Shown piece by piece: positions 2,601-56,127 of a stretch of DNA of 64,000 nt; the first letter of the stretch is position 1, and the number at the start of each line of letters is the position of its first letter. A program made the position numbers and the translations under genes. A model generated the notes under the pieces. It saw only the letters and a program-made list of their open reading frames with translations, ran no database searches and had not been told where the DNA came from. Source of the DNA: Psococerastis gibbosa (Eukaryota; Arthropoda; Insecta; Psocodea; Psocidae); the NCBI GenBank assembly GCA_963971405.1, contig OZ020485.1, positions 18,042,001 through 18,106,000 of the forward strand, in the 5' to 3' direction.

Positions 2601-4470
2601 ATGGAGTTCCCCGGACTTGATGCATACATTGAGACGACATGTCCTGAAGTACTGCTTGATGTTAACTTACTTGAATGTGCTGCTTTGTATAGGGCGAAGA
2701 ATGATGGCAAAGAACCAGTTCTTTTAATTGATGGCAACTCGTGCTCCGATTGGCTATACGGCTCGTATAAACTCCCTGGCGCCAGTTTAGGACTTTACGA
2801 AAAATTTAAAAAACGCTGAAACAAAATCATTGATGCCTTACAGGAAAATTCAATTCGAGCTGTATTCTTATTCCACGGTTTTCCGACATCTACATCTACA
2901 TTTTTTCTGTGACTTAAAAGAAATTTGTATGAAAGTAACGAAACTTCGTCACGAACCTAGAAAAATTGGGTTAGAAAATTGGAATCCAAGAGCGGCTATG
3001 CCAAAATTTCTGAAAACTGACTTGGAAACCACAGAATTTTCTAAGTACATTTTACGCGTAAGAGGCTGTGAGGTTATACAATCGGCCCATACATTAATTT
3101 ATGAACTCAATGATTTTACTGCAAATAATGGATGTTTCGGCCTTCTAGCGCTAGCTACTAATTTTATTGCCTTTGGTATTGACGTGCCTTTGTTTTCGGT
3201 GAAACACTTAAACCTCGAGACTTTGGACACAAAGAAATACTGTCGTAGAACTCTAGCGGGGCACTTGGGCATCAGCGAATCACGTTTCCCACTGCTGGCG
3301 ACACTCTGCGGCAGCGATTTTCTCAACACGAGTGACCTTTACACGTTTTATGTGTCTCTTTTTCGCGAGTACAACGCCAATCTGGATTTCGATTTTTGGA
3401 GAATTCCCCCCTCGACTGAATTGCCGCCTATTTCAAAAGTTGCCGAATGGATTAGGGAGAACTGTGAAAGGTCCCATCTAATTTACTAGATCAAATTTGT
3501 GCACTCCCCGGACTCCAGCTCTCTAAGAATGGAATAGTATGGAGCCTTAAATATTGTTTGGCGCCAACTGAGATCTTACAACCCAGGACTGAAAATCGTA
3601 GGTGGTCGCAAGTACTTCACTGGCCATAGAGAAATACAGACATCATGGCTCGGACAATTCCGTGTATGCCGTTTTTCATACATACGATGAAAACCTTCCT
3701 CAGATTCAGTTATTGGGACTATTTTTGCTCCCCGGAGCCATTTTGTGTCGACTTCCTGGCACCTCTCCGTAAAAGGATGTATGGCATTCTTCTCAAGGAC
3801 TGTCCTTATGAATCATGTTCAGTGGAGGAATTTATACAAAACCTTGAAACAGTCAAACCTCATACAAAACAAGTCGAATTGGAATGTCCGGATGATCATC
3901 CAGGGCTGTTGAGACTATGGGGTGACATTTCTGACGATGAAAAATTGAAATTGTTGTGTTGGGCTGTCAGTGATAACCTAAATCCCAAAATGTTGCTGAC
4001 GATTCCTGAGGAATTGCGCATTAGTTTCTTGTCACTGTTTTATATTGTAGAAAACGCGGTTAAGTATCCGGGTCAAATAACACGGCCAGGCTTGGAAGCT
4101 ATTGTTGTAAGGAACCGCTAACTCAGAGACAAATGTACGTTGCCCACCTTTTTACGCAAACTTGGCTCCAAGTGTTGGCGGTTCATGACGCATGTGGAAG
4201 TCCATTTCTGAATGAAAAAAGAGGGTCAATAACGTATTTTTTGATGGCAAAATGTTCCAAATCATATCCAAATGTTTGGCAAGGGGTTTTCTTGTAGCGC
4301 CAATTTTGTGCTCTGGTCAGAGGTTGTATGCTCACATTACTAAACTTTTATGGCCTTGTAATGCAAATGAGGCAGGTGGGTCTATGCTTACAGCTAGTGA
4401 TGAACTTGAGGCGGATAAGTAGAGGTCTGGTGGCTCAAATAAGTCAGTTAGATCTGGCCTCAGTGACGCA
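2601..4470 (+). pseudogene. FAM120-like pseudogene, MEFPGLDAYI type
   Basis: Three blocks match the intact FAM120-like genes of this window in order. Residues of the N-terminal PIN/XPG part are at 2601-2819, the central part including KYILRVRGCE is at about 2880-3489, and the C-terminal domain (CPDDHPGLLRLWGD, LFTQTW, HDACGSPFLNE) is at about 3645-4290. The family-typical ERWNK is KRxNK here because TGG has become TGA at 2817-2819. There are further frame changes around 2890, 3490-3645 and 4120, where a segment is deleted. A remnant of the C-terminal tail, WPCNANEAGG, is readable near 4350. The promoter module and 5' leader are preserved. It is a host gene copy that decayed after duplication. 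Confidence 0.85.
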
Positions 4471-4479
4471 AGCAAAAAA

Positions 4480-5370
4480 ATCTAGTTTATATTTTGTTTA
4501 TTTTATTTTTTTAAAGCTACAGTTTGCTCAATTATTTTGGAATTTTTTAAGCATTTATTATTATCCTATTAACTCATATATTTGAGAAGGTTTACGTAAT
4601 GAAATTTCCTTTTATCTGAGTTTTAATTTTCCGTCAGACGTACAATAGAAGGTCAAGGACCATACCCTACTGCTTATGTGACACCAATACTTTAAAAATT
4701 ATTAATAATCTTACACATTTTTTACACTGATTAATGCTGCATACGTTAAGTTGGCTATTCCAATGTTTTACTGGATTGGTCAAATTTCACTCTTCCTTTT
4801 ACAATGTACTTACTTTACTTTTACTTTACATTATTCAATGCCAGCTGTTAGCATCTCTGCCATTCGCCGATGAGCCTCCTCTCCTCCCTTCTACAATGCT
4901 TATGCGTTTTATCTTTGTGTGTTTCCCTTACTTTAAAGTGTATGTAAGATACCGTCGTCTCACCTAAGCTTAATTTTTAAAATTGATTTTAGTATTTTCA
5001 TATTAGTCTATTCTATCAGCCTATTATATATTGTGGCAAGGGAAAATTATCATACGTACAATATATTCTGTGGGCTCTATTAGCTTCCTATTCTGAGAGT
5101 AGCTTATTTAAAAAATGCAAGATTTCATGCCAATATCTACATTCTATGAAATTTTAGTCGTCCATGTTTACCAATAATTAAACATTTTAAACACGTGTGT
5201 CCTTTTTTATTAGGAACAGTTGTCTTTGGCATATTGTCCAGGTAATAGAGAGCTGAACTATTAAAAGGAAACAATTTGCGTCCACTTAATCCTAATGGAT
5301 GCCACAACTTCAATGTATTACTGCTGATAGGTAAAATAAATAAATATTGACTTTTTGCTCTATTACTAGC
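4480..5370. other. AT-rich, no gene seen
   Basis: Only short ORFs without recognisable motifs occur here. The region separates the first FAM120-like pseudogene from a LINE fragment. Confidence 0.4.
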
Positions 5371-5374
5371 CAAC

Positions 5375-6415
5375 CTAGAGGACGAAAATCACCTAGTCAA
5401 AAGAGTAATAAACCGGGAGATGCAAGGAATAAAACCACCAGGTTACACTGACAAGAAAGATAGCCCGAGATGTGAGGAGTTTGGGGTTCTCAACCGAGGA
5501 CGCACAGAACAAGACTGTGTGGAAACGCTACTGTCGTACCGCCGACCCTCATAAGGATAAAGAGCGATAGAAGCTAAAAGCAAGCAACGCATAAGATGGC
5601 TGGAATACGTCGTAAGACTGTCAGACGACCGCATACCGAAAACAATGTACAAAGAAAGCATGACAGGAAGACGACTGGCGGGACGTCCTCGAAAACGCTG
5701 GAAGGATGATTTGGAAACTGACCTTGTTGGGAGTTGGGAGTCCGCAGATTGTGGAGCGTTGTACAAAAACCGAGATGACTGGAGGCGTGTTGTCGAGCAG
5801 GCCATAGCTCATCAAGGGCTATAGAGCCAAATGAAAATATTTGAGATAATATTTTTGTCCTTGAATTTATTTTATTTATTTTTTATGAGTTGACGATTTT
5901 TTTTTTAATTTGATGATTGTGTGAGGTGGCTATTGAGTTCCTGGTGAAAGCTGCAATGGATAATGATCTGAACTTTCGTGGAGGAAGTCACGTGTCGCAT
6001 TCCTCCACCTATTCACCTCTGTCTAATTAGAAATAATTATTCATGTGAGAGGCTGAAACCATGTGGTCCGCAATCCACTGTAATCAGGAGGTGCTCATTT
6101 ATATCATTGCAAGTTCAAACACGAAGACTTGGCGCTATGTAAGTTCCTTAGTTGAACCCATGCCCAAGCAAAAATCGTGCGAACGAGTTCCTTGACAACC
6201 TGAACGGGGTACTAACAGGGTAGATAAAGAAGAAGGTGGTATGTAACACTCGGTATACCATATTAACAAAATAATTTAAGTAGATCTGTCTATACGTACT
6301 AGTACTATGGGAAAAGGTTGTTGGTTCAAGGCCTTCCTAGTTGAGTGTAAAAGTGGACTTCATAGCCCTATCTCCGCTAGGTTGGCTTAGTTATAGAAAC
6401 AACAAAAACGTCCTT
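5375..6415 (+). mobile_element. LINE 3' end: RT-ORF C-terminus plus 3' tail
   Basis: About 5375-5825 translates to the classic C-terminal stretch of a non-LTR ORF2: RWLEYVVRLSDDRIPK, GRRLAGRPRKRWKDDLE and WRRVVEQAIAHQGL. One stop interrupts the stretch near 5550. The downstream tail to about 6415 ends in CTCCGCTAGGTTGGCTTAG and an AACAACAAAAAC end. Copies of that tail occur at 13.2, 35.75 and (inverted) 58.5 kb, so they probably mark the same LINE family. Confidence 0.7.
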
Positions 6416-6419
6416 ATAA

Positions 6420-7359: not shown

Positions 7360-7395
7360 AAATGCGCCAAAAGCTTAATTTTAGCGCATGCGTTT
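7360..7395 (+). promoter_or_regulatory. E2F-like plus NRF1-like composite site of the long FAM120-like gene
   Basis: GCGCCAAA (7364-7371) and GCGCATGCG (7384-7392) are 12 bp apart and about 270 bp before the ATG. Downstream, the sequence ACCTGTTGTTACCTGTCC and the block around TTTGACCTTTTAGTGTTTA are shared with other copies. The latter may be the acceptor of a 5'-UTR intron. Confidence 0.6.
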
Positions 7396-7663: not shown

Positions 7664-10600
7664 ATGGCCTTCCGCGGATTTGAGGCGTGCATTAACGCTA
7701 CATGTCCTGACGTTAAAATTGACGTTAATTTACGAGAATGTGCTGATTTGTATAGATCAGAGAATGAAGGCAAAGAACCGGTTCTTTTAATTCATGGCAA
7801 CTCGTGTTCCGATGGGCTATACGACGCGATTAAGTTGCCTGGTGCTAGTTTAGGACTTTACGAGGAATTTAAAGAACGCTGGAACAAACTCATTGATGTC
7901 TTACAGGAAAATTCAATTCGAGTTGTATTCTTATTTGACGGTTTTGAGTATTTTCTGTGGCTTTTCAGAAACTTTATAAAGACAAGGAGGCTTCACGCGG
8001 ACGTAATTAAACTGGGGACAGTAAATTGGATTGCAAATGAAGTCGCTGAAAAATTACTGAAATCTGACATGGAAACGACTGAATTGTTGAAGTACATTTT
8101 GCGTGTAAGAGGTTGTGAGGTTTTGCAATGTGTCCATACATTCGTTTATGAAATTAGGGATTTTACAGCAAGGAACGGCTGTTTTGGTGTTCTAGCGCAA
8201 GCTGCTAATTTGATTGCCTTTGATATTGACGTGAATTTGTTTTCTGTAGATCATTTGAACATTGAGACATTGGACACGAAGAAATACTGTCGTAAACAAC
8301 TAGCAAGACAGTTGGGTATTCGTGAAACGCATTTATCACTGCTGGCGGCACTTTGCTTCGATGATTTTATACCATCTGATTGCCTTTACAAGTTTCATAG
8401 GTCTCTTTTTCCTGAGTTTAACTCCAATCGTGACATTCGTTTGTGGACAATACCGCCCTCGACTTCAATGCCACCTATTGCTAAGGTGGCCGAATGGATT
8501 AAGGAAAACCGTGAAAGATCTGACCCATTGGAGTTGTCAGTTCAAATTTCCGCACTCCCCGGACTTGCGGGTTTCGGCCCAGTAGCAGATAAAATCCTTA
8601 GAGTTTATTCAGGGTCACACAAAGTCTTTGAACCCAGCGGAGAGTGTACATGGTCCCAAATACTTAGAATTGCCATGGAAAGATATCGACATGACGGCTT
8701 GCACAGTTTGGTTTTTAGCGTTATAAAATTGTTGAAAACCTACCACGGGTTCAATTATTGGCACTATATTTGCGTTACGGTGCCATTGAGTGTTGACTTC
8801 CTGGCACCACTTCGTAAAAAGATGTATGGCATTCTACTTCAGGACTCGCCTTACGAATCATGTACAGTGGAAGAATGTGTAAAAAAACTCGAACTAAATG
8901 TGCCTCTTAAAGAAAAAGTTGAATGTGTATATCCAGATGATCATCCGGGACTGCTGAAGTTATGGGGCGATAGCCCTGACGAAGTGAAGATGAGAATGTT
9001 GTGTTGGGCCGTCAGTGACAACTTACATCTCGAAGATTTGCTGACAATACCTGAGGAATTCCGCATTGGTTTCTTGTCGCTTTTTTATATTGCAGAAAAC
9101 GCCGCTTATTATCCGGATGAAATAACACGTGCAAATTTAGAAGCTATTATAGTGGTCCTGATACGTTTGACCCGAAGTTCTCCTGCAGGGTTTAAAAGCG
9201 CGCCATGTAAAGAATCGCCATCGAATAAGGAAATATACATTGCCCACCTTTTTACACAGACTTGGTTTCATGTGTTGGCAGTGCATGACGCATGCGGAAG
9301 TCCATTTCTGAATGAAAACAAGACGGTGAGCAACGTATTTTTTGATGGAAAGCTGTTTCAAATGATTTGTAAACTTATGGCAAAGGGAGTTCTTTCGTCG
9401 GCAGTTTTGAACTTGGTCGAGAACTCATATGTACGTATGACTAACCTTTTATGGCCTAGCACTACAACTAGCACTAGGCCTACTGATGCAAATAAGACAC
9501 CAGAAAAGAAAAAGAAAGGAAAAACTGCCAAGGAGGCTTGTGAACCTAGTAATGCAAATGAGGCATGTGGACCTAGCACTGAGCCTAGTGGTGCTCATGA
9601 GCTGGCTAGACCTTGCCTGATTCCTAGTTCAAGTGAGACAGCTAGGCCATTGTCTAATGAAATTGAGACAGGTGGGCCTAGCCTTGCGCCTAGCGATGCT
9701 AATACGGCTAAGAAAAAGAAGAAAAAGAAAGGAAAAACTGCCAATGAGGCCCATGAGCCTAGTGGTGCTCATGAGCTGGCTAGACCTTGCCTGATTCCTA
9801 GTTCAAGTGATACAGCTAGGCCATTGTCTAATGAAATTGAGACAGGTGGGCCTAGCCTTGCGCCTAGCGATGCAAATACGGCTAGAAAAAAGAAGAAGAA
9901 GAAAGGGAAAGCTGCCATTGAGGTTCATGTGCCTAGTAATGCAATTGAGGCTTGTGGGTATAGCACTGGGCCTAGTGATGCTCATGAGCCAGTTAGACCT
10001 TGCCTGATTCCTAGTTCAAGTGAGACAGCTGGGACATTTTCTTATGAAAATGAGACAGGTGGGCCTAGTCTTGCGCCTAGCGATGCAAATACGGCTGGAA
10101 AAAAGAAGAAAAAGAAAGGAAAAACTGCCAATGAGGCCCATGAGCCTAGTAATGCAAATGTGGCACGTGGACCTAGCACTGAGCCTAGTGGTGCTCATGA
10201 GCTGGCTAGACCTTGCCTGATTCCTAGTTCAAGTGAGACAGCTAGGCCATTGTCTAATGAAATTGAGACAGGTGGGCCTAGCCTTGCGCCTAGCGATGCA
10301 AATACGGCTAGAAAAAAGAAGAAGAAGAAAGGGAAAGCTGCCATTGAGGTTCATGTGCCTAGTAATGCAATTGAGGCTTGTGGGTATAGCACTGGGCCTA
10401 GTGATGCTCATGAGCCAGTTAGACCTTGCCTGATTCCTAGTTCAAGTGAGACAGCTGGGACATTTTCTTATGAAAATGAGACAGGTGGGCCTAGTCTTGC
10501 GCCTAGCGATGCAAATACGGCTGGAAAAAAGAAGAAAAAGAAAGGAAAAACTGCCAATGAGGCCCATGAGCCTAGTAATGCAAATGTGGCACGTGGACCT

Positions 10601-11812
10601 AGCACTGAGCCTAGTGGTGCTCATGAGCTGGCTAGACCTTGCCTGATTCCTAGTTCAAGTGAGACAGCTGGGCCATTGTCTTATGACAATGAGACAGGTG
10701 GGCCTAGTCTTGCGCCTAGCGATGCAAATACGGCTAGAAAAAAGAAGAAAAAGAAAGGAAAAGCTGCCAATGAGGCTCATGAGCCTAGTAATGCAAATGA
10801 GGCATGTGGACCTAGCACTGGGCCTAGTGATGCTCATGAGCTGGCTAGACCCTGCCTTATTCCTTGTTCAACTGAGACAGCTAGGCCATTGCCTAATGAA
10901 AATCAGACAGGTGGGCCTAGCCTTGCGCCTAGCGATGCTAATACGGCTAGAAAAAAGAAGAAGAAAGGGAAAGCTGCCATTGAGGTTCATGTGCCTAGTA
11001 ATGCAATTGAGGCTTGTGGGCATAGCACTGGGCCTAGTGATGCTCATGAGCCAGTTAGACCTCGCATTAGCCTTTATTCTGGCGAGGCAAGGCCTAGTTA
11101 TGCAGATGAGGCTGTTAGGCGTATTACTAGCCATTTATTGTCTAGCAGTGCCAATGAGGCAGTTAGGCCCAGCACCATTTCTAGTGATGTACTTGAGGGG
11201 GTTGGTGTTAGGCCAATTGATGCAAGTAGGGCAACTGGGGCTAGTTACGCAAATGAAGCAGCTGTGCCTTGTTATGCCAATGAGGCGGTTAGGCCTAGCT
11301 CTAAGACAAGTAATGACCATTTGGCAGCTAGAAATTGGCGTACGTCCCGTAACAACGTTTCTGGTGATGTGCTTCAGGCGGTTAGTATTAGGCCATTTGA
11401 TGCAAGTAGGGAACCTGGGCCTAGTTACGCAAATGAAGCAGCTAGGTCTTGTTATACCAAAAATGCGGTTAGACCTAGCTCTAAGACAAGTGATGAGCAT
11501 TTGGCAGCTAGAACTTGGCGTACGTCCCGTTCTGCAAATGAGGCAGCTAGACTTATCCTGATTTTTAATTCTTATGGGGCTGCTATTTCCAACCCTAGAC
11601 CTAATTATGCGCATTTGGCAGCTAGAAATTGGCGTGCGTCTCGTTATGTAAATGAGGCAGCTAGTCTTAGCCTGACTCCTTATAATGCAAATGAGGCTGC
11701 TATTGCTAACCCTAACCTTAGTTATGCGGCGGGGTCTAGCCCTAGTTATGTCAATGAGGCAGCCAGGCCTAGTCGTCCTAGTGATGCAAATGAATCGGGT
11801 AGGCCCAACTGA
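7664..11812 (+). CDS. FAM120-like XPG-fold protein with a long tandem-repeat tail
   Basis: This is an intact single-exon frame of 1382 residues. Residues 1 to about 595 are a FAM120-family body: an N-terminal PIN/XPG domain (MAFRGFEACI, LLIHGNSCSD, VFLFDGF), an XPG-I-like segment (KYILRVRGCEVLQ), and the C-terminal family domain (YPDDHPGLLKLWGD, LFTQTWF, HDACGSPFLNE, VFFDGKLFQ). FAM120 proteins are RNA-binding or coactivator-type scaffolds in vertebrates. The first catalytic Asp of XPG nucleases is His44 here, and the D-x-D of the second acidic cluster reads AQAAN, so nuclease activity is unlikely. From about residue 630, seven units of mostly 71 residues (213 bp) alternate proline/serine-rich text with lysine blocks (KKKKKKGK). 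A more degenerate ANEAAR-rich tail follows. A polyadenylation signal AATAAA lies near 11964. The ATG is the first in frame and aligns with the sister genes. Confidence 0.85.
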   Translation: MAFRGFEACINATCPDVKIDVNLRECADLYRSENEGKEPVLLIHGNSCSDGLYDAIKLPGASLGLYEEFKERWNKLIDVLQENSIRVVFLFDGFEYFLWLFRNFIKTRRLHADVIKLGTVNWIANEVAEKLLKSDMETTELLKYILRVRGCEVLQCVHTFVYEIRDFTARNGCFGVLAQAANLIAFDIDVNLFSVDHLNIETLDTKKYCRKQLARQLGIRETHLSLLAALCFDDFIPSDCLYKFHRSLFPEFNSNRDIRLWTIPPSTSMPPIAKVAEWIKENRERSDPLELSVQISALPGLAGFGPVADKILRVYSGSHKVFEPSGECTWSQILRIAMERYRHDGLHSLVFSVIKLLKTYHGFNYWHYICVTVPLSVDFLAPLRKKMYGILLQDSPYESCTVEECVKKLELNVPLKEKVECVYPDDHPGLLKLWGDSPDEVKMRMLCWAVSDNLHLEDLLTIPEEFRIGFLSLFYIAENAAYYPDEITRANLEAIIVVLIRLTRSSPAGFKSAPCKESPSNKEIYIAHLFTQTWFHVLAVHDACGSPFLNENKTVSNVFFDGKLFQMICKLMAKGVLSSAVLNLVENSYVRMTNLLWPSTTTSTRPTDANKTPEKKKKGKTAKEACEPSNANEACGPSTEPSGAHELARPCLIPSSSETARPLSNEIETGGPSLAPSDANTAKKKKKKKGKTANEAHEPSGAHELARPCLIPSSSDTARPLSNEIETGGPSLAPSDANTARKKKKKKGKAAIEVHVPSNAIEACGYSTGPSDAHEPVRPCLIPSSSETAGTFSYENETGGPSLAPSDANTAGKKKKKKGKTANEAHEPSNANVARGPSTEPSGAHELARPCLIPSSSETARPLSNEIETGGPSLAPSDANTARKKKKKKGKAAIEVHVPSNAIEACGYSTGPSDAHEPVRPCLIPSSSETAGTFSYENETGGPSLAPSDANTAGKKKKKKGKTANEAHEPSNANVARGPSTEPSGAHELARPCLIPSSSETAGPLSYDNETGGPSLAPSDANTARKKKKKKGKAANEAHEPSNANEACGPSTGPSDAHELARPCLIPCSTETARPLPNENQTGGPSLAPSDANTARKKKKKGKAAIEVHVPSNAIEACGHSTGPSDAHEPVRPRISLYSGEARPSYADEAVRRITSHLLSSSANEAVRPSTISSDVLEGVGVRPIDASRATGASYANEAAVPCYANEAVRPSSKTSNDHLAARNWRTSRNNVSGDVLQAVSIRPFDASREPGPSYANEAARSCYTKNAVRPSSKTSDEHLAARTWRTSRSANEAARLILIFNSYGAAISNPRPNYAHLAARNWRASRYVNEAASLSLTPYNANEAAIANPNLSYAAGSSPSYVNEAARPSRPSDANESGRPN
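9590..11045 (+). repeat. Coding minisatellite, 213-bp units in 426-bp pairs
   Basis: Unit starts (GAGCTGGCTAGACC or GAGCCAGTTAGACC) fall at about 9599, 9773, 9986, 10199, 10412, 10625 and 10838. The step is 213 bp except for the first, which is 174 bp. Types alternate: 9773-10198 and 10199-10624 are nearly identical pairs, so the array last grew by duplication of 426 bp. All units keep the reading frame. Antisense and +1 ORFs over the array are by-products of its periodicity. Confidence 0.9.
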
Positions 11813-13459: not shown

Positions 13460-13492
13460 GCGCGCCAAATTTTAAATACTAGCGCATGCGTC
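13460..13492 (+). promoter_or_regulatory. E2F-like plus NRF1-like composite site of the copy at 13.8 kb
   Basis: GCGCCAAA (13462-13469) and GCGCATGCG (13482-13490) are 12 bp apart and about 280 bp upstream of the ATG. They are followed by the shared ATACTATCCTGTTGTTACGTG. Confidence 0.55.
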
Positions 13493-15238: not shown

Positions 15239-15967
15239 ATGGAGTGCCGCGGACTTGAGGCATATATTGAAACGAAATGTCCAGAAGTACTTCTTGATGT
15301 TAATTTACATGAATGTGCTGATTTGTATAGAGAACAGAATAAAGGCAAAGAGCCAATTCTTTTAGTTCATGGCAACTCGTGCTCCGATTGGCTATACGAC
15401 GCGATTGAAACCCCTGGCGCCAGTTTAGGACTTTATGAAGAATTTAAAGAGCGCTCCAAGAAACTTATCGATGTCTTACAGGAAAATTCAATTCGAGCGA
15501 TATTCTTATTTGACGGTTTTTTCGCAACTAGTGATCTTTCTCTATGGCTACACAAAAACTTTCGAATAATGCAAAACATCCAAGAATGGAGGAAAGATCG
15601 GTTCGAAAATGGAATTAATCGCGAAGTCATGGTAAAATATTTGAAATCAGATTTGGAAACAACTGAATTTTTTAAGTACATTTTACGAATAAGAGGCTGT
15701 GAGGTTATGCAATGTGTCCATTTTTTAGTTTATGAAATCAGGAATATTGCTGCAAAGAATGCTTGTTATGGTTTACTAACGAAAGCTAGTAATTTTGTTG
15801 GTTTTCAAATTGACGTGACGTTGTTTTCTATGAAACATTTAAACCTCGAGACCTTGGACACAGAGAAATACTGCCGTAGGACGTTTGCTAGTCAAAGTTT
15901 GGGTATTAAAGATTGGCATTTTCCCCTGCTGGTGACACTCTGCGGCAACGGTTTTATATCATCTGAT
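15239..15967 (+). pseudogene. FAM120-like fragment, N-terminal half, cut by a foldback element
   Basis: MECRGLEAYIETKCPEVLLD opens a frame with LLVHGNSCSDW, IFLFDGF, KYILRIRGCEVMQ and TLCGNGFISSD. That frame runs to about residue 243, where the foldback element at 15968-16170 begins and closes it after a few foreign residues (stop at 16001-16003). No family sequence is visible beyond the element, so the C-terminal half is lost. It begins only about 130 bp after the previous truncated copy and has no E2F/NRF1 module of its own. The leader segment before its ATG resembles the 3' part of the other leaders. Confidence 0.8.
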
Positions 15968-16170
15968 AGACTGTTATGTAGATACTTAACTTATCTATTA
16001 TAAATTAAGTTATAATATGGTAGCAGACATCATTAATAAGTCTCTACCATATTATAACTTAATTTATAATAGATAAGTTAAGTATCTACATAATAGTCTC
16101 CTTAAAACAAAACAAATGTCAATGACAAAATCAAATATGAAGTAAATTCGCGGGTGGAACAGCCGCTTTA
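15968..16170. mobile_element. Foldback element with the GTAGCAGACAT core (left arm shortened)
   Basis: The arms read GACTGTTATGTAGATACTTA and its complement around a loop containing GTAGCAGACATCATTAATAA. The right arm extends to an outer end GGGTGGAACAGCCGCTTTAG, which has no partner on the left. The element is the inner part of the one at 44767-45038. Confidence 0.75.
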
Positions 16171-19491: not shown

Positions 19492-20538
19492 CTAAGCCGG
19501 AGAATGCTCTGTGTATGGCAAAATATGACCATAGGTTGGGTTTACGTTAATAACTACTACTTTAGATTGGATACCGACCATTTCTAGTCGATGAACTCTT
19601 TTACATCGGGTACGAAGCTCTTCAAAAGTAAATTCCGAATATTTCTCACTGTCTGTCTCACCATACAGCTCATCTCCTGGTAGTAAGAAGACGAACCCGT
19701 CCTTGAGCGTAAGATGTGCGTGACCATTAAACCAATCAATACCTAGTGGCTCGCGCTCATAAGCAAATTGAGCCAAGTCTTCTAACATGCAAAATGGAAT
19801 AACCCGCGAGATCTCATACTTTTGCGGTGGTGGCACCCATTGCTTATTTCTGGCATTTGCTGCTAAAATATCCACTGGGGTGTTCCACGCTAATTTTGAA
19901 ATTTCGGCTCCGTCAGCACAGCTGCTAGGTTGATACGGTAGACATACTGTGAAGAAACTGGTATCAAACCGTTTGTTTAATTTTGTAACGTTTGGTGGCG
20001 TCAGCCAATTGCTCCACAACTTTAGACCCCAAATATCTGGAATTATGTTCAGAGTCTCGCACATTGACAAGAAATTGTTGGAATCCTTTTGCACTTTGCT
20101 TCGCCATTCTGCTAACTCGGGCATATTGTCTATTGCCTCTCCCCACTCAGTAGGACCATCACATGCATTTTTTCTGCATAAGAGAACACCCGATTCTTCA
20201 AAGGCTTCCCGAATGGCGGCTAACCTTAAGGACAGCTGTTTAGGAAAGTCAATTTTCTGTTGGTCTTGAAACATTGGCGGTAGTTTGCTTGGATCTATAA
20301 GAAGCTTATGTAGGGACGCTTCGGACACACCATAAGTTTTGAAAAAATCCCTCCAAGTAGCAGCAGAATCCACAGGTTCTACTTTACCGCCAGGGAAGAC
20401 ATAGCCGCTTGGCATGAATGAACTTTCTTCGCTCCTTTTCAAGGTAAGAATTTTATAATTGTAGGGTGACACATACGGCTTCTTTTGTAAAGCCATAAGC
20501 ATGACGGTCGATGCTTCCAGCCATTCTTTCTTAAGCAT
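19492..20538 (-). CDS. NUDT19: NUDT19-like Nudix hydrolase (acyl-CoA diphosphatase type)
   Basis: This intronless frame of 348 residues matches the NUDT19 family along its length (human about 375). MLMALQKK and a hydrophobic start lead into the Nudix fold. FMPSGYVFPGGKVEPVD carries the conserved Gly-Gly, and LAAIREAFEESGVLL is the Nudix helix with its Glu residues. Later family blocks include LKLWSNWLTPP, RFDTSFFTVCLP, WVPPPQKYE and LLPGDELYGETD. The vertebrate enzyme hydrolyses CoA and acyl-CoA in peroxisomes and ends in a PTS1-like SHL. This protein ends EHSPA, so no PTS1 is visible. OST4 lies 103 bp upstream on the same strand. The first ATG is used because the family's N-terminus begins about there. 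Confidence 0.9.
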   Translation of the reverse strand: MLKKEWLEASTVMLMALQKKPYVSPYNYKILTLKRSEESSFMPSGYVFPGGKVEPVDSAATWRDFFKTYGVSEASLHKLLIDPSKLPPMFQDQQKIDFPKQLSLRLAAIREAFEESGVLLCRKNACDGPTEWGEAIDNMPELAEWRSKVQKDSNNFLSMCETLNIIPDIWGLKLWSNWLTPPNVTKLNKRFDTSFFTVCLPYQPSSCADGAEISKLAWNTPVDILAANARNKQWVPPPQKYEISRVIPFCMLEDLAQFAYEREPLGIDWFNGHAHLTLKDGFVFLLPGDELYGETDSEKYSEFTFEELRTRCKRVHRLEMVGIQSKVVVINVNPTYGHILPYTEHSPA

Positions 20539-20641
20539 GATAGTAAAAGATAAAGACTTACGTAACTTAAATTAGATTATATTAACCGAACATTAGAGGA
20601 TGATGCATCCGAATATTATAATAATGTGCCCACGTAGCGCT

Positions 20642-31797: not shown

Positions 31798-33567
31798 CTA
31801 TATATAGTACAAAAAGTCAATAAAACTTGTATAAGCGTCAGCATTGCACAAACCTTTACAATTCATCTCGTCCGGCATAGCCTGTCTCGCTTTAAACACA
31901 CTATTAAATAGTTTACCATGAAAAAACACATTATTAACCTGGTCGCTCCCATTAAAAAGTTTAAAACCACAAATATCAAAGGCAACTAATACGTGCTGCC
32001 AAGCCCGGATGAAAAGAGTTGCAATATGAATCTCTAACATATCCGGAACACCACACGGAATCGATTCCAATTCTCGAAGTGGAATTTCCGTTAGTCGAAT
32101 CAAATGAACAGCAAGCGCTTCGATATGCCACCGCTTGACCCCAGACTTTACTTCACGAGCCAAATAAAAGAGAGTTAGGTAACTAATACGTAACTTCTCA
32201 GGTATCGACAATACCTTATATGTTTTTAACTTACTGCTAATAGCCCAGCAGAGAATTTTAATTTTTTTAACTAAATTACCATTGCTCCAAAGAACGAGCA
32301 GTCCTGGATGAACGTCAGGGTATTCATAGTAGGCTAATGTTGGATAGCAAGAACAGACATATTCAGTGACGCAGCAAGGCCCAGCGGGACGTTCTTTCAG
32401 TAGGACACCGTATAGCCGGCGTCTGAGGGGCTTCAGTATTGCTAGGCTCGAAGTCGAAGACATTAACTCGAAACGGCAATCGTAGTAACACTTTGATAGA
32501 GTCAGTACTGGTAGGATTGAAGCGTCAGCTCCTTCACGGTGACGTTGTTCTGCTAAACGCAGTATTTTGGGCCAGTCCCCGTATGTAGCTCCGAAAGTCG
32601 ATTCACTCCAGGCAATGGGTAGATACGATTTAATACTATTACTTAACTTTTCTTTTAAATGAGGAGCGTTTATAGAATTTGCGAGAACACTAGGCCAGGT
32701 GGATGGGTGTTGCAATCGAGAGGTGTTTTGCATTATCCACGCAGCAACTTTGGGGAAAATTAATTTCTTCTGCAGGTAAATAGCGCCTTCAAGCTGATGA
32801 AAGTTAGGCAAGTCTCGTAGAAGCGATAAATGAAAACTATGCAGATCATCGTCAGTTAGAAAGTCATTGCCGCAAAGCGTTGCCAGAAGTGGTAAATACA
32901 ATTCGTCAAGTTTCAAATGATTTGCTAGATACGTCTTATCGTATACTTTGGTGCTAAACGTATCTACATGCAAATAGTTTATTGAAAAACAATTATCTAC
33001 ACCTTCAATTGCAATATAATCGGTATCTCGGGAAAGCACGCCGTAGCAGCCATTTTTTGCAATAAATTCCAAAATCTCTTCTTCGCCAACTTTCATGGTT
33101 TGCAGAATTTCGCAGCCTGTATACCGGACGACATATTTAAAAAATTCTATTTTTGGCACCATGTATCTCATCATTCCCTGAGCTTCGTCAACGTGGCCCT
33201 TTTCTACGAGTTGCGTTGCCATGGCGATCTTTTGGGAAACTTCGCATATCGCCTTTTTCCGCGCTTCTACACTTATGACTCTAGCAGTGGATCCGTCAAA
33301 CAAAAACACAGCTCTGATACCGTGTCTCTTGAAAAGCTGGATTAGTTGTATCAATTGTTCTTCGAACTCCCTGTAAAGTGCTAAATGCGTACCGGACGAG
33401 GGTATGCTGCTGTATAAATGCCGGGAACACGCATGACTGTCTATTAAAAGAATTGGTACTTTGCCCGTGCGCTCTTTGTACAAGGCAACACTTTCCGCAA
33501 ATTTCACTTTTTTAAGTGCCTTTGGACATTCTCTGTAGATGAATTGGTCAAGTCCTCGAATCCCCAT
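31798..33567 (-). CDS. FAM120-like XPG-fold protein, MGIRGL type, D-x-D retained
   Basis: This intact single-exon frame has 589 residues. It opens MGIRGLDQFIYRECP. D43 in LLIDSHACS, D91 in VFLFDGST, the acidic GEEEILEF and SRDTDY keep the XPG acidic pattern. Family blocks follow: LATLCGNDFLTDDDLHSFHL, LRRRLYGVLLKERP, EYPDVHPGLLVLW, FYLAREVKSGVKRWHIEAL, FDICGFKLFNG and NVFFHGKLFN. A splice-acceptor-like TTGTTTTGCAG ends 8 bp before the ATG, which suggests a 5'-UTR intron. The Tc1/mariner-type foldback at 33620-35197 would lie inside that intron or just upstream. Its closest relative in the window is the copy at 26 kb. Confidence 0.87.
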   Translation of the reverse strand: MGIRGLDQFIYRECPKALKKVKFAESVALYKERTGKVPILLIDSHACSRHLYSSIPSSGTHLALYREFEEQLIQLIQLFKRHGIRAVFLFDGSTARVISVEARKKAICEVSQKIAMATQLVEKGHVDEAQGMMRYMVPKIEFFKYVVRYTGCEILQTMKVGEEEILEFIAKNGCYGVLSRDTDYIAIEGVDNCFSINYLHVDTFSTKVYDKTYLANHLKLDELYLPLLATLCGNDFLTDDDLHSFHLSLLRDLPNFHQLEGAIYLQKKLIFPKVAAWIMQNTSRLQHPSTWPSVLANSINAPHLKEKLSNSIKSYLPIAWSESTFGATYGDWPKILRLAEQRHREGADASILPVLTLSKCYYDCRFELMSSTSSLAILKPLRRRLYGVLLKERPAGPCCVTEYVCSCYPTLAYYEYPDVHPGLLVLWSNGNLVKKIKILCWAISSKLKTYKVLSIPEKLRISYLTLFYLAREVKSGVKRWHIEALAVHLIRLTEIPLRELESIPCGVPDMLEIHIATLFIRAWQHVLVAFDICGFKLFNGSDQVNNVFFHGKLFNSVFKARQAMPDEMNCKGLCNADAYTSFIDFLYYI

Positions 33568-36968: not shown

Positions 36969-39587
36969 ATGGGAATTAGAAGCCTAGAATCATATATTAA
37001 TCAAAAATGCCCAGAGGCATTTATGAGTGTAAACATAGCTCAATGCGCTGCATTGTACAAAAAGACAAAGGGAAAGGAGCCAATTCTTTTGATTGATGGC
37101 AGTTCATTATCACATTGGTTATATAATGGAATTTCCTCCACTGGTGTTTTCTTGGGCCTTTATGAGGAACTCAACGAGAGACTTGAAACTTTTCTTAGCA
37201 GTTTAAAGAGGAACCAAATCAAATTTGCATTTTTCTTTCACGGTTCTATAAGTCTACAACCACATCAAGAACGAGAAGAGCTGTGGATACAGAGACGGTA
37301 CCGTATGAAAAAATGAAAGAAATAATGGAAGCAACGCGAAATTTTTCGACCGGCCAATGCAATGTAGTATTTTTTTTTATTATTATATAAATTGGGGTAC
37401 AGGTGTTACCTGTGTGCACTTAAGCCTATTGGCCTATTGTGCCCCCTACAACAAAGTATCTACATCACTTCTACATCACTTTCTCGAGGCCTATCTCCCT
37501 CACGAGAGCCAGGATCTTGAGGGGATTCAGAAGTGGTAGGTCTTTTACATGTAACTGCAAGCTTTCCGAGCATGCTGCTCTTCTTCGTACGATTGCATCG
37601 CATCGCATCGCAGGTCCTCCGCATCTTCATTGCAGAATCTGCAAGACTATAGTTGTCTCCCTAAGAGACTCCAGATATTTAACCCCAGGACCAAAGACGC
37701 CAAGGCCTGTTCTTGGTTTGGTACTTCCTAGCCTAGAGCCATCAGTATACCACTTGATTGTGTGACTATTGAGAATTCCTGCTGATTCGCAGCATTCTTT
37801 CATTGTCCCTAATATAGTTTCGAATTCCCTCCTAAAACAGTATTTTGGATGGATTCTATCGCTTGGCATATCCAAGCAGTGGTCAGACGTAGTCAGAGAG
37901 GCTGAGTCTCTCTTAATTGCCCTTTCACTCCTGGTAATGCCATTTCTGCTGAAGTTTCCACTGCAACATGGAGGGGTGGGAAGTCCAGTACTATCTCCAT
38001 TGCTGCAGTGGGACAGGATTACATAGCCCCTGTAAAGCATCATGTTAGAGAATACGGGCTTCTGAATGTAGCCATAATTTGGATTATTCAGAGAAAAATT
38101 CTCATGTGGTTTGATTTTGCCATGTCCATGAAGCCATGACCAATGGTATGGTTACAGCAGGAAAAGACAGGCAGTATGCAATGTAGTAGCTGTACAGAAA
38201 ATCTTAAATGACCAAGTTGCCAAGACAGATTTTATGAAGTACGTTTTGCGCGTACGCGGTTATGAAATGCTGCAAACACTCAGTACTAATGCTGAAATTA
38301 TGGACTTTGTAGCGAAGAATGATTGTTTCGGCATATTGGCCCAAAGTACTGAATTTATTGTGTGTGATGGCCTCCAAAGTTACTTCTCCCTAAAACATTT
38401 GGATATGAACAATTTTACCACGATGGAATACTGTAAAACTAGACTGGCGCATCACCTGGACATCGATCCGTTATATCTGCCACTACTCGCAACGCTGTGT
38501 GGCAATGATTTTCTATCAGATGAGGATCTTCGTCATTTTCATTTGTCCCTGCTACGTGAACTTCCCAATTTTCACCGTTTTCGAAGTTACACCCATCTCT
38601 CAAAAACAATCATGATACCAAAAGTGGCGGTGTGGATTTAAAATAACTCTTACAGACTTAAGGATCCAGCGTCGTGGACAGTGGTCGTTCCTGGTCTAAT
38701 CAAACACTCCAGTTTAAGTGAGAAGATAACAGACAGCATTAAATCTTATTTCAAGTCAAATACTTCTGACAGTAAAGCAAATAGCAACAGTGTTTGGCAA
38801 AAAATTCTTTGCCTAGCCGAAGAACGCTATCGGCGTGTACGTTTACCCAGTTCAATTTTCAATATCATGAATTTTTCTAAATGCTACCATGGCTGCCGCT
38901 TCGAGTATTTCTCCAATCCATCCTTGCCACCGAGCGGAATACTACTCAGACCTCTTCGCAGCAGAATGTATGGCATTCTTCTCCGAGATAATCATGCAGA
39001 AATTACAGAATTTGTTGTGACAGGACCAAACTGCCTTACCCCGCCATTCTTGGCCTCGTATGAACAGCGTGACGAACATCCTGGTCTACTGCACCTTTGG
39101 AGTGATAACTGTCCCCAGGAAGAACAATTGAAGATTTTATGCCGGGCAGTTAGCAGCAAGCTAAAACTCGGCAATTTTTTGTCACTTCCTGACAACTGTC
39201 GCATTAGTTGTTTATCTCTGTTTTATTTAGCACGTGAAGTCAAGTCTTGAACGTTGGCAAATTGAAGCTCTTGTTATTCTCATCGTCCGTTTATCGGAAA
39301 TTTCTATTGCAGATTTAAAGGCAGTGCATTGTGGAGTGCCAGATATGAATGAAATACATATTGCTACGGTTTACTTCCGGACCTGGTTTCATGTTTTGAC
39401 TCTGAATGACGCATGTGGAAGTCCTCTTTTAAAGAAAAGTCCGAATCCAACGAAAGATATATTTTTCGATGGCAAATGGTTTAATATTGTCTACTGCGTG
39501 GCCAAGTCGAGGGAAACTTTGGGCTCTGATTTGTGTAACAATAATCCATTATTTGAGCAGATTCTTGAATTTATATTCAAGGAATAA
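36969..39587 (+). pseudogene. FAM120-like pseudogene, MGIRSLE type, split by a LINE
   Basis: The copy reads MGIRSLESYINQKCP, LLIDGSSLSHW and FAFFFHGS, then loses frame near 37310. A LINE (37370-38175) interrupts it. The body resumes with KYVLRVRGYEMLQ, AQSTEFIV, TLCGNDFLSDEDLRHFHLSL, an in-frame TAA at 38639-38641 (VAVWI*NNS), LRSRMYGILLRD, DEHPGLLHLW and FYLAREVKS. There is a further frame change near 39245, then LERWQIEALVI, NDACGSPLL, IFFDGKWFN and the family C-terminus at 39587. The second acidic cluster is degraded (AQSTE). It belongs to the MGIRGL subfamily, on the opposite strand to its two relatives. Confidence 0.85.
37370..38175 (-). mobile_element. 5'-truncated LINE with RNase H-like region, 13-bp target duplication
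   Basis: ATGCAATGTAGTA occurs at 37357-37369 and 38176-38188 and brackets the insert. A T-run at 37370-37379 is the complement of the poly(A) tail. On the minus strand, HTIKWYTDGSRLGSTKPRTG and LGVFGPGVKY mark the RNase H part of an I/Jockey-group ORF2. The insertion lies inside the FAM120-like pseudogene. Confidence 0.85.
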
Positions 39588-45850: not shown

Positions 45851-47737
45851 CTAAGGGTTAGGCCCACCTGCCTTATTTCCATCATTAGCCCCAGGGATAG
45901 GCCTACCAGCCGTCTTCGCATTATTAGGCCATAAAAGGCTAACCAAACGTTCATACAAATTCACATTTAAGCTTAAAATATCGCCATCAACACCCTTCAA
46001 CACCCGTTTTTTGTATGCAAGTTGGAACAGTTTTCCATCAAAAAATACGTTATTCACCCTCTTGTTTTCATTCAGAAATGGACTTCCACACGCGTCATGC
46101 ACTGCCAACATTAGAAACCAAGTCTGAGTATAAAGGTGTCCCATATAAATTTCTTTCTGAGATGGAAGTTCCTTACATGGTGCGCTTTTCAAACGTTGGT
46201 ACAGGAGGGGATATTGCGACAACCGAATAATGACCACAACTAGAGCTTCTAAATCTGGACGCACACTTGGTTTATTAGCTTTGAACTTTTCCGCCATATA
46301 AAACAGTGACAAGAAACCAATGCGCAATTCCTCAGGAATCTTAAGCAAATCGTCGAGTTGTAAGCTTTTGCTGACGGCCCAACACAACATTTTCATCTTC
46401 TCTTCCTCAGTGCTGTCGCCCCATAACCTCAGCAGTCCTGGATGAACGTCGGGACATTCAAATTCGACTTGCTCCGTATGGGCTTTGCTTGGTTCTACTT
46501 TTTTCATCCATTCTTCCACTGCACATGGTTCATGGGGACAGTCTTTTAGGAGAATACCATACATCTTTTTACGGAGAGGTTTCAGGAATTTAGCAACCGA
46601 TGGCGTCATGCGGCACAAATAGTCCCTGTAATATATCACATGGAAGTTTCGTAAACAAGCAATAACGCTAAAAAATGAATGGTGCAAGCCTTCACTGCGA
46701 TATCTTTGTTTGGCCATTCTCACTATTTGTAACCACGCCCCTTTTGCGGTGCGTTCATAGGCTTTAGCTGGCATCGAATAACATCTGAGGCTCGTTTCTA
46801 TTCTATGGCTGGAGAGCTGGAGTCCGGGGAGTGCAGCAATTTGATCAGCTAACTTCGATGGGTCTAATCTCTCACGATTTTCTCTAATCCATTCGGCCAC
46901 TTTGGCAATAGGTGGCATTGCAGTTAAAGGTGGTATCCTCCAATAATCAAAATCCAGATTGGCGTTATACTCGCGAAAAAGGGACACATAAAACATGTAA
47001 AGGTCACTTCTGTCGAGAAAATCGTTGCCGCAAAGTGTCGCTAGCAGTGGCAAATGCGATTTATCAACGTCCAAATGAGTCGCAAGGCTTTGACTGCTGT
47101 ATATCTTTGTGTCCAAAGTCTCAATGTTTAAATGTTTCACAGAAAACAGCGTTACGTCAATATCAAAGGCAATAAAATTAGTACCTTGCGCCAAAAGACC
47201 AAAACATCCATGCTTTGCGATGAAATCTCTAATTTCATAAACAAACGTATGGACACCTTGTATGATTTCGCAACCTCTTGCACGCAACATGTACTTTAAA
47301 AATTCTGTCGTTTCAATATCGGATTTCAGGAACTTTGTCTCGACTTCTAATGGAATCCAATTATCTCTCCCAACTTTTTTTAGTTCCTTGTTAACGTTCT
47401 TGCCTTTAAGATAGCTTCTCTTTGCCCACAGATATATCTCGCGATCCCATGTGGGACAACTGTCAAAGAAGAATACTGCTCGAATAAAATTTTGTTGTAG
47501 TACATCAATGAGTTTGTTCCAGCGTTCTTTGAATTCTTCGTAAAGTCCTAAACTGCCGCCAGGAGATTCATTGGCGCCGTATAGCCAATTGGAACACGAG
47601 TTGCCATGAATTAAAAGAACTGGTTCTTTGCCTTGATTCTCCGTCCTATACAAATCAGCACTTTCACGTAAATTAACATCAAGTAGTACTTCTGGACATG
47701 TCATTTCAATGTATGCCTCAAGTCCGCGGAACTCCAT
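45851..47737 (-). CDS. FAM120-like XPG-fold protein, MEFRGLEAYI type
   Basis: This intact single-exon frame has 628 residues. MEFRGLEAYIEMTCPEVLLD opens the PIN/XPG part. LLIHGNSCSNW has His at the first catalytic position, VFFFDSCP keeps the second Asp, and AQGTNFIAFD has lost the D-x-D, so the protein is predicted to be catalytically dead. Downstream are LATLCGNDFLDRSDLYMFY, LRKKMYGILLKDCP, ECPDVHPGLLRLWGDS, LYTQTWF, HDACGSPFLNE and VFFDGKLFQLAY. The end NDGNKAGGPNP is a short version of the motif that is expanded in the 7.7-kb gene. Its promoter module lies about 2.9 kb upstream at 50591-50619, pushed away by a hAT element and two dispersed repeats that probably sit in a 5'-UTR intron. A TTTTGACTTTTAGTG acceptor-like block is at about 47840-47855. 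Confidence 0.88.
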   Translation of the reverse strand: MEFRGLEAYIEMTCPEVLLDVNLRESADLYRTENQGKEPVLLIHGNSCSNWLYGANESPGGSLGLYEEFKERWNKLIDVLQQNFIRAVFFFDSCPTWDREIYLWAKRSYLKGKNVNKELKKVGRDNWIPLEVETKFLKSDIETTEFLKYMLRARGCEIIQGVHTFVYEIRDFIAKHGCFGLLAQGTNFIAFDIDVTLFSVKHLNIETLDTKIYSSQSLATHLDVDKSHLPLLATLCGNDFLDRSDLYMFYVSLFREYNANLDFDYWRIPPLTAMPPIAKVAEWIRENRERLDPSKLADQIAALPGLQLSSHRIETSLRCYSMPAKAYERTAKGAWLQIVRMAKQRYRSEGLHHSFFSVIACLRNFHVIYYRDYLCRMTPSVAKFLKPLRKKMYGILLKDCPHEPCAVEEWMKKVEPSKAHTEQVEFECPDVHPGLLRLWGDSTEEEKMKMLCWAVSKSLQLDDLLKIPEELRIGFLSLFYMAEKFKANKPSVRPDLEALVVVIIRLSQYPLLYQRLKSAPCKELPSQKEIYMGHLYTQTWFLMLAVHDACGSPFLNENKRVNNVFFDGKLFQLAYKKRVLKGVDGDILSLNVNLYERLVSLLWPNNAKTAGRPIPGANDGNKAGGPNP

Positions 47738-52012: not shown

Positions 52013-52123
52013 TACATAGTGTAATTGTTCATAATCCGTTTTAAGGACTGATAAAGACCGATTTGCGTGTGGCCTGGTGGTGGAAGGATTGGCCGGCGAG
52101 TTGACACTAGAGGTATGTCGTTC

Positions 52124-52261: not shown

Positions 52262-52269
52262 CTGGCGTC

Positions 52270-54180: not shown

Positions 54181-54186
54181 TTTACA

Positions 54187-56127
54187 TTAGGGGCTAGGGC
54201 TAGGGGTCTCAAGATAAGGCATATCAGCCTCGGGGTCAACATTTCTAGGGCCAGGCCTACCCTCATCATTCTCAATTGCAGCCCTAACAATGGCCTCATG
54301 TAATTGATCGGGCCATAAAGCCTGAAATATGACTGGATAAAGTTCGTTATCTAAGCTCAAATCAGCGGCTGGAACTCCTTTCAAAACCCGATGTTTGTAC
54401 ATAACACGGAACAGTTTTCCATCAAAAAATACGCTGTTCACCTTGTCTTTATTCAGGTATGGACTTCCACATGCGTCCTGTACTGCCAATATTTCAAACC
54501 AAGTCTGCGTAAAAAGATGGGCAATGTACACTTCCTTTTCACGCGGCGGTTCGAGACATGTCTCGGCTTTCAAAAATTGAAGAGAATTTCCATGCAGCCG
54601 AACAATGACTAGAAGAAGCGTTTCCAAGTCCGCGCGCGTGATATTAACTGGATAATCGTTTTGTGAAATATAAAACAGCGACAAGAAAGCAATGTGTAAT
54701 TCCTTTGGAAGCATGAACAAAATTTGGGGGCGAAGGCTACTACTGACGGCCCAACACAACATCATTATCTTCTGAACGGGAGTGGTCTCCTTCCACAACT
54801 TGAGCATTCCTGGATGTTGAATAGGACGCATACTGGCGACTGGATGCAGAACCAGCTCGTGCGGCATCATTTTTTTCGTCCGCTCTTCCACTACATAATG
54901 TTGCACTGGATGGTCTTTTAGAAGAATGCCGTACATTCTTGAACGAAGTGGTCTCAGGAAGTCGACAGTATGAGGGTCAGAGCCGTTTAAACAGTCCCTA
55001 TAATAGAATCCGCGGTAGTATTGCAACCACTTAACGACGGTATAAACCGAACGATTTAAGCCTTTATACAGGTATCTTGCTTCGGCTTCGCGAGTTTTTC
55101 GTGACCATACATCGTTTTCTTCAGGTAAAACTAGATTGCTTTTACGTGGTACCAAATAATGCATAAGACTATATTTCATAAATTTGATTGCATATGAGGG
55201 CCCGGAAAATGTAGACAGTTGAGCAGCCCACCCTGCTGGGTCTAATGTTAATATTTCCGAGTTTTGCCTAATCCATCCTGCCACTAGGGGAATATACAGC
55301 ATTGCAGGCATGAGCGGCATGACAAACAAATTTGGATTTTGGACACCGTTACGCTCGCATGAAAGAAGAATCTGATGAAAAAAGTGCAAATTATATTCCC
55401 ATGTAATATCGTTGCCGCAGAGTGTCGCCAACAGCGGAAAAAACCTCTTGTCAATGCCCCAATGAGTTGCAAGCTTTCTGCGACAGTATATCTTTGTGGC
55501 CAAAGTATTAATGTTTAAATGTTTCACAGAAAACAAAGTCATGTCAGCAGCGAAGCCAATAAAATGGGTAGCTCGCGCAAGAAGCCCAATACAGTCCCTC
55601 TTCTTTGCTAAGAACTCCATCATATCAGGAACCACTCCTTCGATTGTTTGTATAATTTCACAACCTTTTACACGCAAAATGTGCTTTAAAAATTCCGTCG
55701 TTTCCATGTCAGATTTTAAGAAATTTGCCATGGTTTCATTTGGCAGCCCGCTAAAATCTTCCTCATCGTCTACTACCCTGAGGATGTCCCTTGATTTTCG
55801 ACAGTTTCTTCTAAACCAAATATGTAACTCGCTTTTCGAAGTTGGGTAACCGTCAAAGAAGAATACAGCACGAATTCCATTTCCCTTTAAGACACCAATA
55901 AGTGTGTTCCATCTATCTTTAAATTCTTCGTAGAGTCCCAAACTTCGGCCAGGCAATTCAATCGCCTCGTATAGCCAATCGGAACACGAGTTTCCATGAA
56001 TTAAAAGAATCGGCTGCCTCTCACTATTCCCCATCCTAAATATATCAGCACTTTCACGCATATTACCATCAACTAATACTTGTGGACATGCTATATCAAT
56101 GTATGCCTCAAGGCCGCGGACGTCCAT
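54187..56127 (-). CDS. FAM120-like XPG-fold protein, MDVRGLEAYI type
   Basis: This intact single-exon frame has 646 residues. MDVRGLEAYIDIACPQVLVD, LLIHGNSCSDW (His for the first Asp), VFFFDGYP and ARATHFIGF (D-x-D lost) place it with the degenerate subfamily. The body shows KHILRVKGCEIIQ, LATLCGNDITW, LRSRMYGILLKDHP, HPGMLKLWKE, FYISQNDYP, LFTQTWF, QDACGSPYLNK and SVFFDGKLFRVMY. The C-terminus (GRPGPRNVDPEADMPYLE) is unrelated to the repeat tail except for short GRPGP-like text. The promoter module is about 2 kb upstream (58079-58106), separated from the ATG by nested foldback and LINE-like repeats. Confidence 0.88.
   Translation of the reverse strand: MDVRGLEAYIDIACPQVLVDGNMRESADIFRMGNSERQPILLIHGNSCSDWLYEAIELPGRSLGLYEEFKDRWNTLIGVLKGNGIRAVFFFDGYPTSKSELHIWFRRNCRKSRDILRVVDDEEDFSGLPNETMANFLKSDMETTEFLKHILRVKGCEIIQTIEGVVPDMMEFLAKKRDCIGLLARATHFIGFAADMTLFSVKHLNINTLATKIYCRRKLATHWGIDKRFFPLLATLCGNDITWEYNLHFFHQILLSCERNGVQNPNLFVMPLMPAMLYIPLVAGWIRQNSEILTLDPAGWAAQLSTFSGPSYAIKFMKYSLMHYLVPRKSNLVLPEENDVWSRKTREAEARYLYKGLNRSVYTVVKWLQYYRGFYYRDCLNGSDPHTVDFLRPLRSRMYGILLKDHPVQHYVVEERTKKMMPHELVLHPVASMRPIQHPGMLKLWKETTPVQKIMMLCWAVSSSLRPQILFMLPKELHIAFLSLFYISQNDYPVNITRADLETLLLVIVRLHGNSLQFLKAETCLEPPREKEVYIAHLFTQTWFEILAVQDACGSPYLNKDKVNSVFFDGKLFRVMYKHRVLKGVPAADLSLDNELYPVIFQALWPDQLHEAIVRAAIENDEGRPGPRNVDPEADMPYLETPSPSP

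Follow-up and report, generated by a model that had tools for sequence, protein, structure and literature searches.

The proteins of the FAM120 group are poorly understood. In mammals, FAM120B (SAN1) is a FEN1-like 5′ exonuclease of single-stranded DNA (ssDNA) with seven acidic residues, and SAN1 is listed as absent from Drosophila and present in other insects, according to PMC6030175. From predicted structures, PMC12345631 groups ASTE1 (asteroid) and yeast Mkt1 with FAM120. Here we describe an array of SAN1/FAM120B-like genes in the insect Psococerastis gibbosa, first noticed in a stretch of 64,000 nucleotides (the window, positions 18,042,001 to 18,106,000 of contig OZ020485.1, hereafter C2, assembly GCA_963971405.1). 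This gene expansion is real, well delimited and unusual, and most of its copies, as judged from alignment, lack the greater part of the FEN1-type catalytic carboxylates. A comparable expansion was not found in the open-access literature, judged by title, most subscription journals lying outside the scope of that survey. Since relatives of SAN1 that bear the active site and relatives that lack it occur in one genome, they amount to a natural experiment on the roles of the family besides DNA cutting, and the array supplies a candidate set of fast-evolving insect genes.

Organization of the array

The original prediction, made from the sequence of the window, described one locus with nine FAM120-like copies, five intact and four broken, on both strands. 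Using the five uninterrupted proteins of the window as tblastn queries against it, these nine regions were recovered with the same positions, strands and condition, i.e., five uninterrupted frames (1382, 601, 589, 628 and 646 residues) and four broken regions. In the following list, in window positions, the copies are scored by the number of acidic residues at the seven catalytic positions defined in the next section; those with six or seven are called active-type, and those of the derived clade, which have lost most of them, dead-type.

2601..4440, + strand: broken SAN1/FAM120B-like copy with frame shifts and stops (tblastn pieces in frames 3, 1, 3, 2 and 1), closest to the dead-type copies
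7664..11812, + strand: uninterrupted copy, 1382 residues, 2/7 positions acidic, repetitive tail of about 770 residues
13766..15102, + strand: broken copy (tblastn), open N-terminal part of 396 residues, frame shifts after 14920
15239..16003, + strand: truncated 5′ fragment of a copy (tblastn), 254 codons
26023..27828, − strand: uninterrupted copy, 601 residues, 7/7 positions acidic, candidate for a competent nuclease
31798..33567, − strand: uninterrupted copy, 589 residues, 6/7 positions acidic
36969..39584, + strand: broken copy with frame changes, interrupted from 37.30 to 38.17 kb by about 870 bp that show no similarity to the family
45851..47737, − strand: uninterrupted copy, 628 residues, 2/7 positions acidic
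54187..56127, − strand: uninterrupted copy, 646 residues, 2/7 positions acidic

The prediction understated the extent of the locus. When the genome (409 Mb, 68 contigs) was searched with five family members, the array was found to reach 85 kb past the left edge of the window and to comprise 17 copies, 12 uninterrupted and 5 broken, over 141 kb of C2 (17.957-18.098 Mb). The birth-and-death mode that had been put forward for it is supported. The search for relatives elsewhere in the genome, which the prediction had called for, disclosed seven further single-frame copies outside the array, so that the uninterrupted copies number 19 in total; genome-wide counts are lower bounds, and repeated searches with the five queries gave largely the same set.

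Uninterrupted array copies, C2 (Mb): 17.957, 17.966, 17.972, 17.982, 17.993, 18.034, 18.039, 18.049, 18.068, 18.074, 18.088, 18.096
Broken array copies, C2 (Mb): 18.030, 18.045, 18.056, 18.057, 18.080
Single-frame relatives outside the array (Mb): C2 3.575, C2 3.587, C3 10.004, C19 13.517, C15 7.502, C15 7.857, C15 8.612
Frame-shifted relative: C15 1.648 Mb
Family fragments (Mb): C2 3.49, C12 9.77, and C2 3.58 (in one search only)

The C12 fragment, at 9.768 Mb, is an isolated C-terminal piece of the family (L067 3167-3388, E 6e-17 in the locus search) with no other convincing part within 6 kb. It could be either an isolated remnant or the terminal exon of a gene divided by introns.

A FEN1-type fold and the loss of the active site

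The N-terminal domain of these proteins is predicted to have the nuclease fold of the FEN1/XPG superfamily. A profile of 16 copies compared with the sequences of the PDB matched FEN1 or EXO1 in 22 of 22 cases at E<=10, the best of them being 1a76 (E 0.0041, the sole match of the 22 with E < 0.01); a search of the PDB with a single family protein gave no match. The corresponding domain models respond faintly: Pfam XPG_N and XPG_I reach best E values of 0.091 and 0.02, both below the Pfam cut-offs, NCBIfam fen_arch matches three of the 16 members, at best with E 0.0092 and well short of its cut-off, and an XPG_I search of the genome had no match at any family copy. A structure model of residues 1-297 of the protein encoded at 26023-27828, built from seven window sequences (mean predicted local distance difference test score, pLDDT, 67.6), was compared using Foldseek, and all of the 50 matches listed were EXO1, FEN1, Rad2, XPG or GEN1 (best E 4e-9). 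The TM-scores of these matches were low (0.32-0.40), and hence the overall packing of the model is not to be trusted; a full-length model was set aside for its pLDDT of 44.

The profile alignment with PDB sequences located the FEN1 positions D86, E158, E160, D179, D181 and D233, whereas D34, which falls outside this alignment, was located by the LLVDG motif. All seven positions are acidic in the C19 copy and in window copy 26023-27828, and six in 31798-33567. The remaining 16 uninterrupted copies have acidic residues at 2 or 3 of the seven; the 13766 copy, the one broken array copy that was scored, has 1/7, and the frame-shifted C15 1.648 copy one among the five positions it covers. By this alignment, most copies lack the greater part of the FEN1-type catalytic carboxylates, a point that the original prediction missed, as it did the long tails of eight derived copies described below. 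The active-type copies of the array are located beside dead-type ones. The C19 copy (13.517 Mb, L008), solitary and with its seven catalytic residues, is probably the one that comes closest to a typical SAN1 gene in P. gibbosa.

Relation to SAN1 and FAM120A

The family likeness to FAM120 drawn in the prediction stood, and the relevant relative is taken to be FAM120B/SAN1 rather than FAM120A, a FAM120A-like gene lying separately on C14. Within the family, 38 residues are invariant across 16 copies, and the C-terminal DACG...FFDGKLF region is conserved; it may resemble human FAM120 and is a candidate for the conserved C-terminal region that SAN1 requires for its activity. The C14 gene belongs to the same superfamily and matches the family profile; its first coding segments, which start with MGVHSLQSFV, resemble human FAM120A. 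In a three-frame translation read by eye its coding region is apparently split by introns, in contrast with the array members, which are single frames and nearest to the SAN1-like copy of C19. For this reason FAM120A was rejected as the source of the array, and the array and its dispersed relatives are taken to be on the FAM120B/SAN1-like side.

The likeness to SAN1 lies in the FEN1-like N-terminus and in the seven acidic positions of the C19 and 26023-27828 copies, with the aspartate of FFFDG at residue 91 versus D90 of SAN1. Two further marks of SAN1, 5′ ssDNA exonuclease activity and the binding of senataxin, are biochemical. On the other hand, mammalian SAN1 has central, disordered 12-residue repeats between the nuclease and C-terminal regions, whereas the active-type copies, of about 600 residues, are without them, and the repeats of P. 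gibbosa are longer, occur only in some derived copies and follow the C-terminal region. Since the central repeats are lacking, the copies are called SAN1-like and not SAN1. The size of the array, and a majority of copies without an active site, likewise depart from SAN1. With FEN1, EXO1, XPG and GEN1 the proteins share the catalytic positions and, as modelled, the N-terminal fold; they differ from these in their sub-threshold XPG_N and XPG_I matches and in an additional C-terminal half.

Branching order and mode of duplication

In a tree rooted with the three C15 copies as the assumed outgroup, the order of branching is C19, the two active-type window copies, C3, and then the dead-type clade. 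The fork after C19 has a support of 94/94, just below the mark set by the tool, and the fork among 26023-27828, 31798-33567 and a 155-residue piece of 36969-39584, which groups near the active-type copies, does not resolve. Because the dead-type clade forms after the C19 and active-type copies, it seems that the active site was lost before the greater part of the expansion took place. An active site is also missing from the C15 trio, and this could be either a separate loss or an older state. The C15 copies at 7.502 and 7.857 Mb, divergent relatives, form a close pair (dN 0.10, dS 0.12, ratio 0.85), the product of a recent duplication in which constraint is hardly apparent.

Coding introns are absent from 19 of 19 uninterrupted copies, including the basal C19 copy, as the original prediction had proposed for the copies it saw; therefore, the intronless coding frame predates the array. 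In human FAM120B, part of the nuclease domain is encoded in exon 1, according to PMC6030175. The prediction also held that the amplification started from a retrocopy or an intronless founder, and amplification by retrocopying is contradicted in the subclade that was compared, i.e., the five copies at 17.957-17.993 Mb. Homology of their non-coding flanks extends past both ends of the frame, over about 280-390 bp on the upstream side and 180-425 bp on the downstream side (where the comparison covers the copies other than 17.957), and returns in patches farther out. In retrocopies, homology would end with the transcript, next to poly-A. Since the flanks are homologous on both sides, these copies are duplicates at the DNA level, and this subclade grew by duplication of DNA and not by reverse transcription.

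Rates of evolution

The ratio dN/dS (ω) was estimated with codon-model code of our own, and not with PAML, in two subclades of the array, both made up of five copies and having a dS in the usable range; as a check, model M0 gave 0.732 for the five-copy subclade (570 codons), against 0.719 with IQ-TREE (586 codons). All broken copies and the C15 copies were excluded from the selection tests, as was C2 17.982 from the branch model. The values of ω in the two subclades were 0.73 and 0.57, and ω=1 was rejected in both (twice the log-likelihood difference, 2dL, 11.0 and 64.1). Neutral ratios, which the original prediction had named as an observation that would count against it, were thus found in neither subclade tested; ω is raised, with a suggestive signal of positive selection.

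Dead-type branches evolve faster, yet they are non-neutral. In a three-class branch model of 15 sequences (522 codons), with deep branches near saturation, ω was 0.14 on the active-type branches, 0.40 on that of C3 and 0.54 on the dead-type ones (2dL 164). The active class of this first run also included two connecting inner branches, and with these set apart the values were 0.12, 0.39 and 0.54, respectively (2dL 159). The three active-type copies and C3 alone gave 0.145, and the M2a signal described next was absent from them.

Tests among sites suggest positive selection, which is fairly robust in one subclade and marginal in the other. The comparison of M1a and M2a gave 2dL of 23.8 and 24.1 (p 7e-6 and 6e-6) and that of M8a and M8 gave 24.0 and 25.3; the M7-M8 comparison too favours sites with ω > 1. 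Masking the columns near gaps brought the M1a-M2a p values to 9e-5 and 6e-5, and the additional removal of the fastest copy to 0.018 and 0.008, a weaker signal. When the alignment was analysed by thirds on separate trees, which differ slightly from one another, the summed p values were 0.050 and 4.7e-4, and 3/6 thirds were below 0.05. The windows of high ω partly coincide between the subclades (Spearman 0.38, shared codons) and lie after the FFFDG motif and around codons 280-340, 400-420 and 560-580; the stretch after FFFDG is the place of the arch in FEN1.

C-terminal tails and an upstream element

Eight derived copies carry tails, their whole frames having 703-1382 residues with cores near 600. 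Each of the three tailed copies examined contains tandem repeats, with units of 174, 177, 180 or 213 bp, in the window as follows:

9580..11530, + strand: tandem repeats (units of 174, 213 and 180 bp) encoding the tail of the 7664 copy

Where measured, tails are rich in Ser, Ala, Gly, Pro and Lys; the anchor motif used to delimit them failed for several copies.

Both subclades have an element, at about 250-310 bp upstream of the start, in which GCGCCAAA precedes GGCGC or GCGCATGCG:

2300..2328, + strand: GCGCCAAA...GCGCATGCG, at a distance of about 300 bp upstream from the broken 2601 copy
7364..7392, + strand: GCGCCAAA...GCGCATGCG, before the 7664 copy
13462..13490, + strand: GCGCCAAA...GCGCATGCG, before the 13766 copy

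Exact GCGCCAAA or TTTGGCGC occurs within 400 bp upstream of 7/13 array copies, against a mean of 0.14 and a maximum of 2 in 2,000 draws from a first-order Markov null, a count to be read with the shared descent of the copies, which are not independent. The element is retained between subclades that have diverged to a pairwise dS near 1, and it hints that the array copies may be transcribed. It resembles E2F- and NRF1-type sites; a proposal of E2F-driven expression was softened, given the exact element in 7/13 copies and none within 600 bp of the active-type window copies 26023-27828 and 31798-33567. A pyrimidine run that ends in AG is also repeated before several array starts, at a distance of about 100 bp, and could mark the end of a 5′ UTR intron.

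Possible roles of the array

The fold family, the catalytic loss, the non-neutral maintenance, the rapid change and the tails could be joined by more than one mechanism. The account that we favour, and consider about as probable as all others together, is that the derived copies are SAN1-derived nucleic-acid-binding proteins that do not cut, maintained and diversifying, perhaps via conflict with viruses or transposons. A founder without coding introns, whose FEN1-type active site was complete and whose best representative today is C19, would have given rise to copies on C2, among which 26023-27828 and 31798-33567 would have stayed close to it. A derived clade would then have lost most of the seven metal-binding carboxylates while keeping open frames and the core of the sequence, multiplied by local DNA duplication into the present array with its five broken copies, and gained in eight members a repetitive tail rich in Ser, Ala, Pro, Gly and Lys. 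Such proteins may bind single-stranded nucleic-acid ends without cutting them; according to PMC6030175, the nuclease-dead D90A form of SAN1 retains ssDNA binding. The arch-side and C-terminal surfaces, together with the tail, may determine the choice of partner, and the copies could have been retained for their usefulness in an arms race, either because they bind or sequester nucleic acid that is foreign or mobile, or because they tune their active paralogues. By analogy, copies that mostly stay open and change fast would fit a pattern frequent in host-defence genes. A more specific version is correspondingly more doubtful, namely that of an insect host-defence or germline-conflict family in which FEN1-fold pseudo-nucleases, derived from SAN1 and diversified through duplication and positive selection, capture viral or transposon single strands uncut and the variable tails route them, beside competent paralogues of the same cluster. 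Hints at the level of annotation may be seen in fleas infected with Yersinia pestis, where a protein annotated as this coactivator is up 3.3-fold and listed beside attacins and Relish (PMC7526888), and in planthopper saliva, where a protein so annotated is listed (PMC5935387). Viral capture was considered separately and rejected, none of 67 pattern matches in one viral contig collection being a relative by tblastn.

It is also possible, though we rate it at only about half the likelihood of the favoured account, that these are decaying duplicates, produced by unequal crossing over and drifting to pseudogenes, in which residue loss and raised ω reflect relaxation and the positive-selection signal stems from gene conversion or alignment. 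Five of the 17 array copies are broken, and the youngest subclade of the array has an ω of 0.73, with values of 0.75-0.93 when its members are paired with C2 17.982. Two aspects of the site tests weigh against our preferred account and in favour of decay: the signal weakens without the fastest copy or by thirds, and, because the thirds give differing trees, the test is perhaps inflated by conversion. Decay fits poorly, however, with the 19 uninterrupted frames, many of them below 50 percent identity with the two copies used for comparison, with the rejection of ω=1 in both subclades, with the invariant residues, and with the conservation of the upstream element between divergent subclades. That the array is an assembly artefact, inflated by duplicated haplotypes, is scarcely credible; no point in its support was found, even the two most similar array copies are separated by a dS of 0.175, and the copies, which are of different lengths, succeed each other on a single contig at intervals of 5-10 kb.

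Two functional alternatives appear improbable to a similar degree. The copies may have diversified in DNA repair without host-parasite conflict and work together in the repair of cross-links or of replication, with the dead copies regulating or scaffolding active SAN1-type proteins. SAN1 protects mammalian cells from cross-links (PMC6030175), and active-type copies sit next to dead ones. The GCGCCAAA element is similar to an E2F site. Against this alternative, fast evolution and variable tails are unusual for core repair. Alternatively, the dead copies could be RNA regulators like FAM120A, i.e., RNA-binding partners of Argonaute or stress granules. PMC12345631 describes FAM120A as a stress-granule protein that interacts with miRNA proteins and proposes FAM120, ASTE1 and Mkt1 as one class, and the repetitive tails contain Lys; against this, the tree derives the dead copies from SAN1-like ones, and P. 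gibbosa has its FAM120A-like gene separately on C14.

Other features of the window and the genome

Inside the array, 19492-20571 (−) encodes a lone single-frame protein of 359 residues, which resembles NUDT19 and whose match to NUDIX is weak (E 7e-4 and 8e-4, slightly short of the cut-off). Two other open reading frames, 37627-38151 (−, 174 residues) and 22227-22817 (−, 196 residues), had no Pfam match at E<=0.1; the former is antisense within the sequence that splits the 36969-39584 copy, and by eye it is like a piece of a retroelement RNase H. The genome has long TTAGG arrays (13,642 forward and 7,517 reverse matches, versus 0 for the reversed pattern) and six matches to 7tm_6 odorant receptors, versus 0 in 14 control genomes. 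These marks, an arthropod and an insect trait, respectively, point to an insect.

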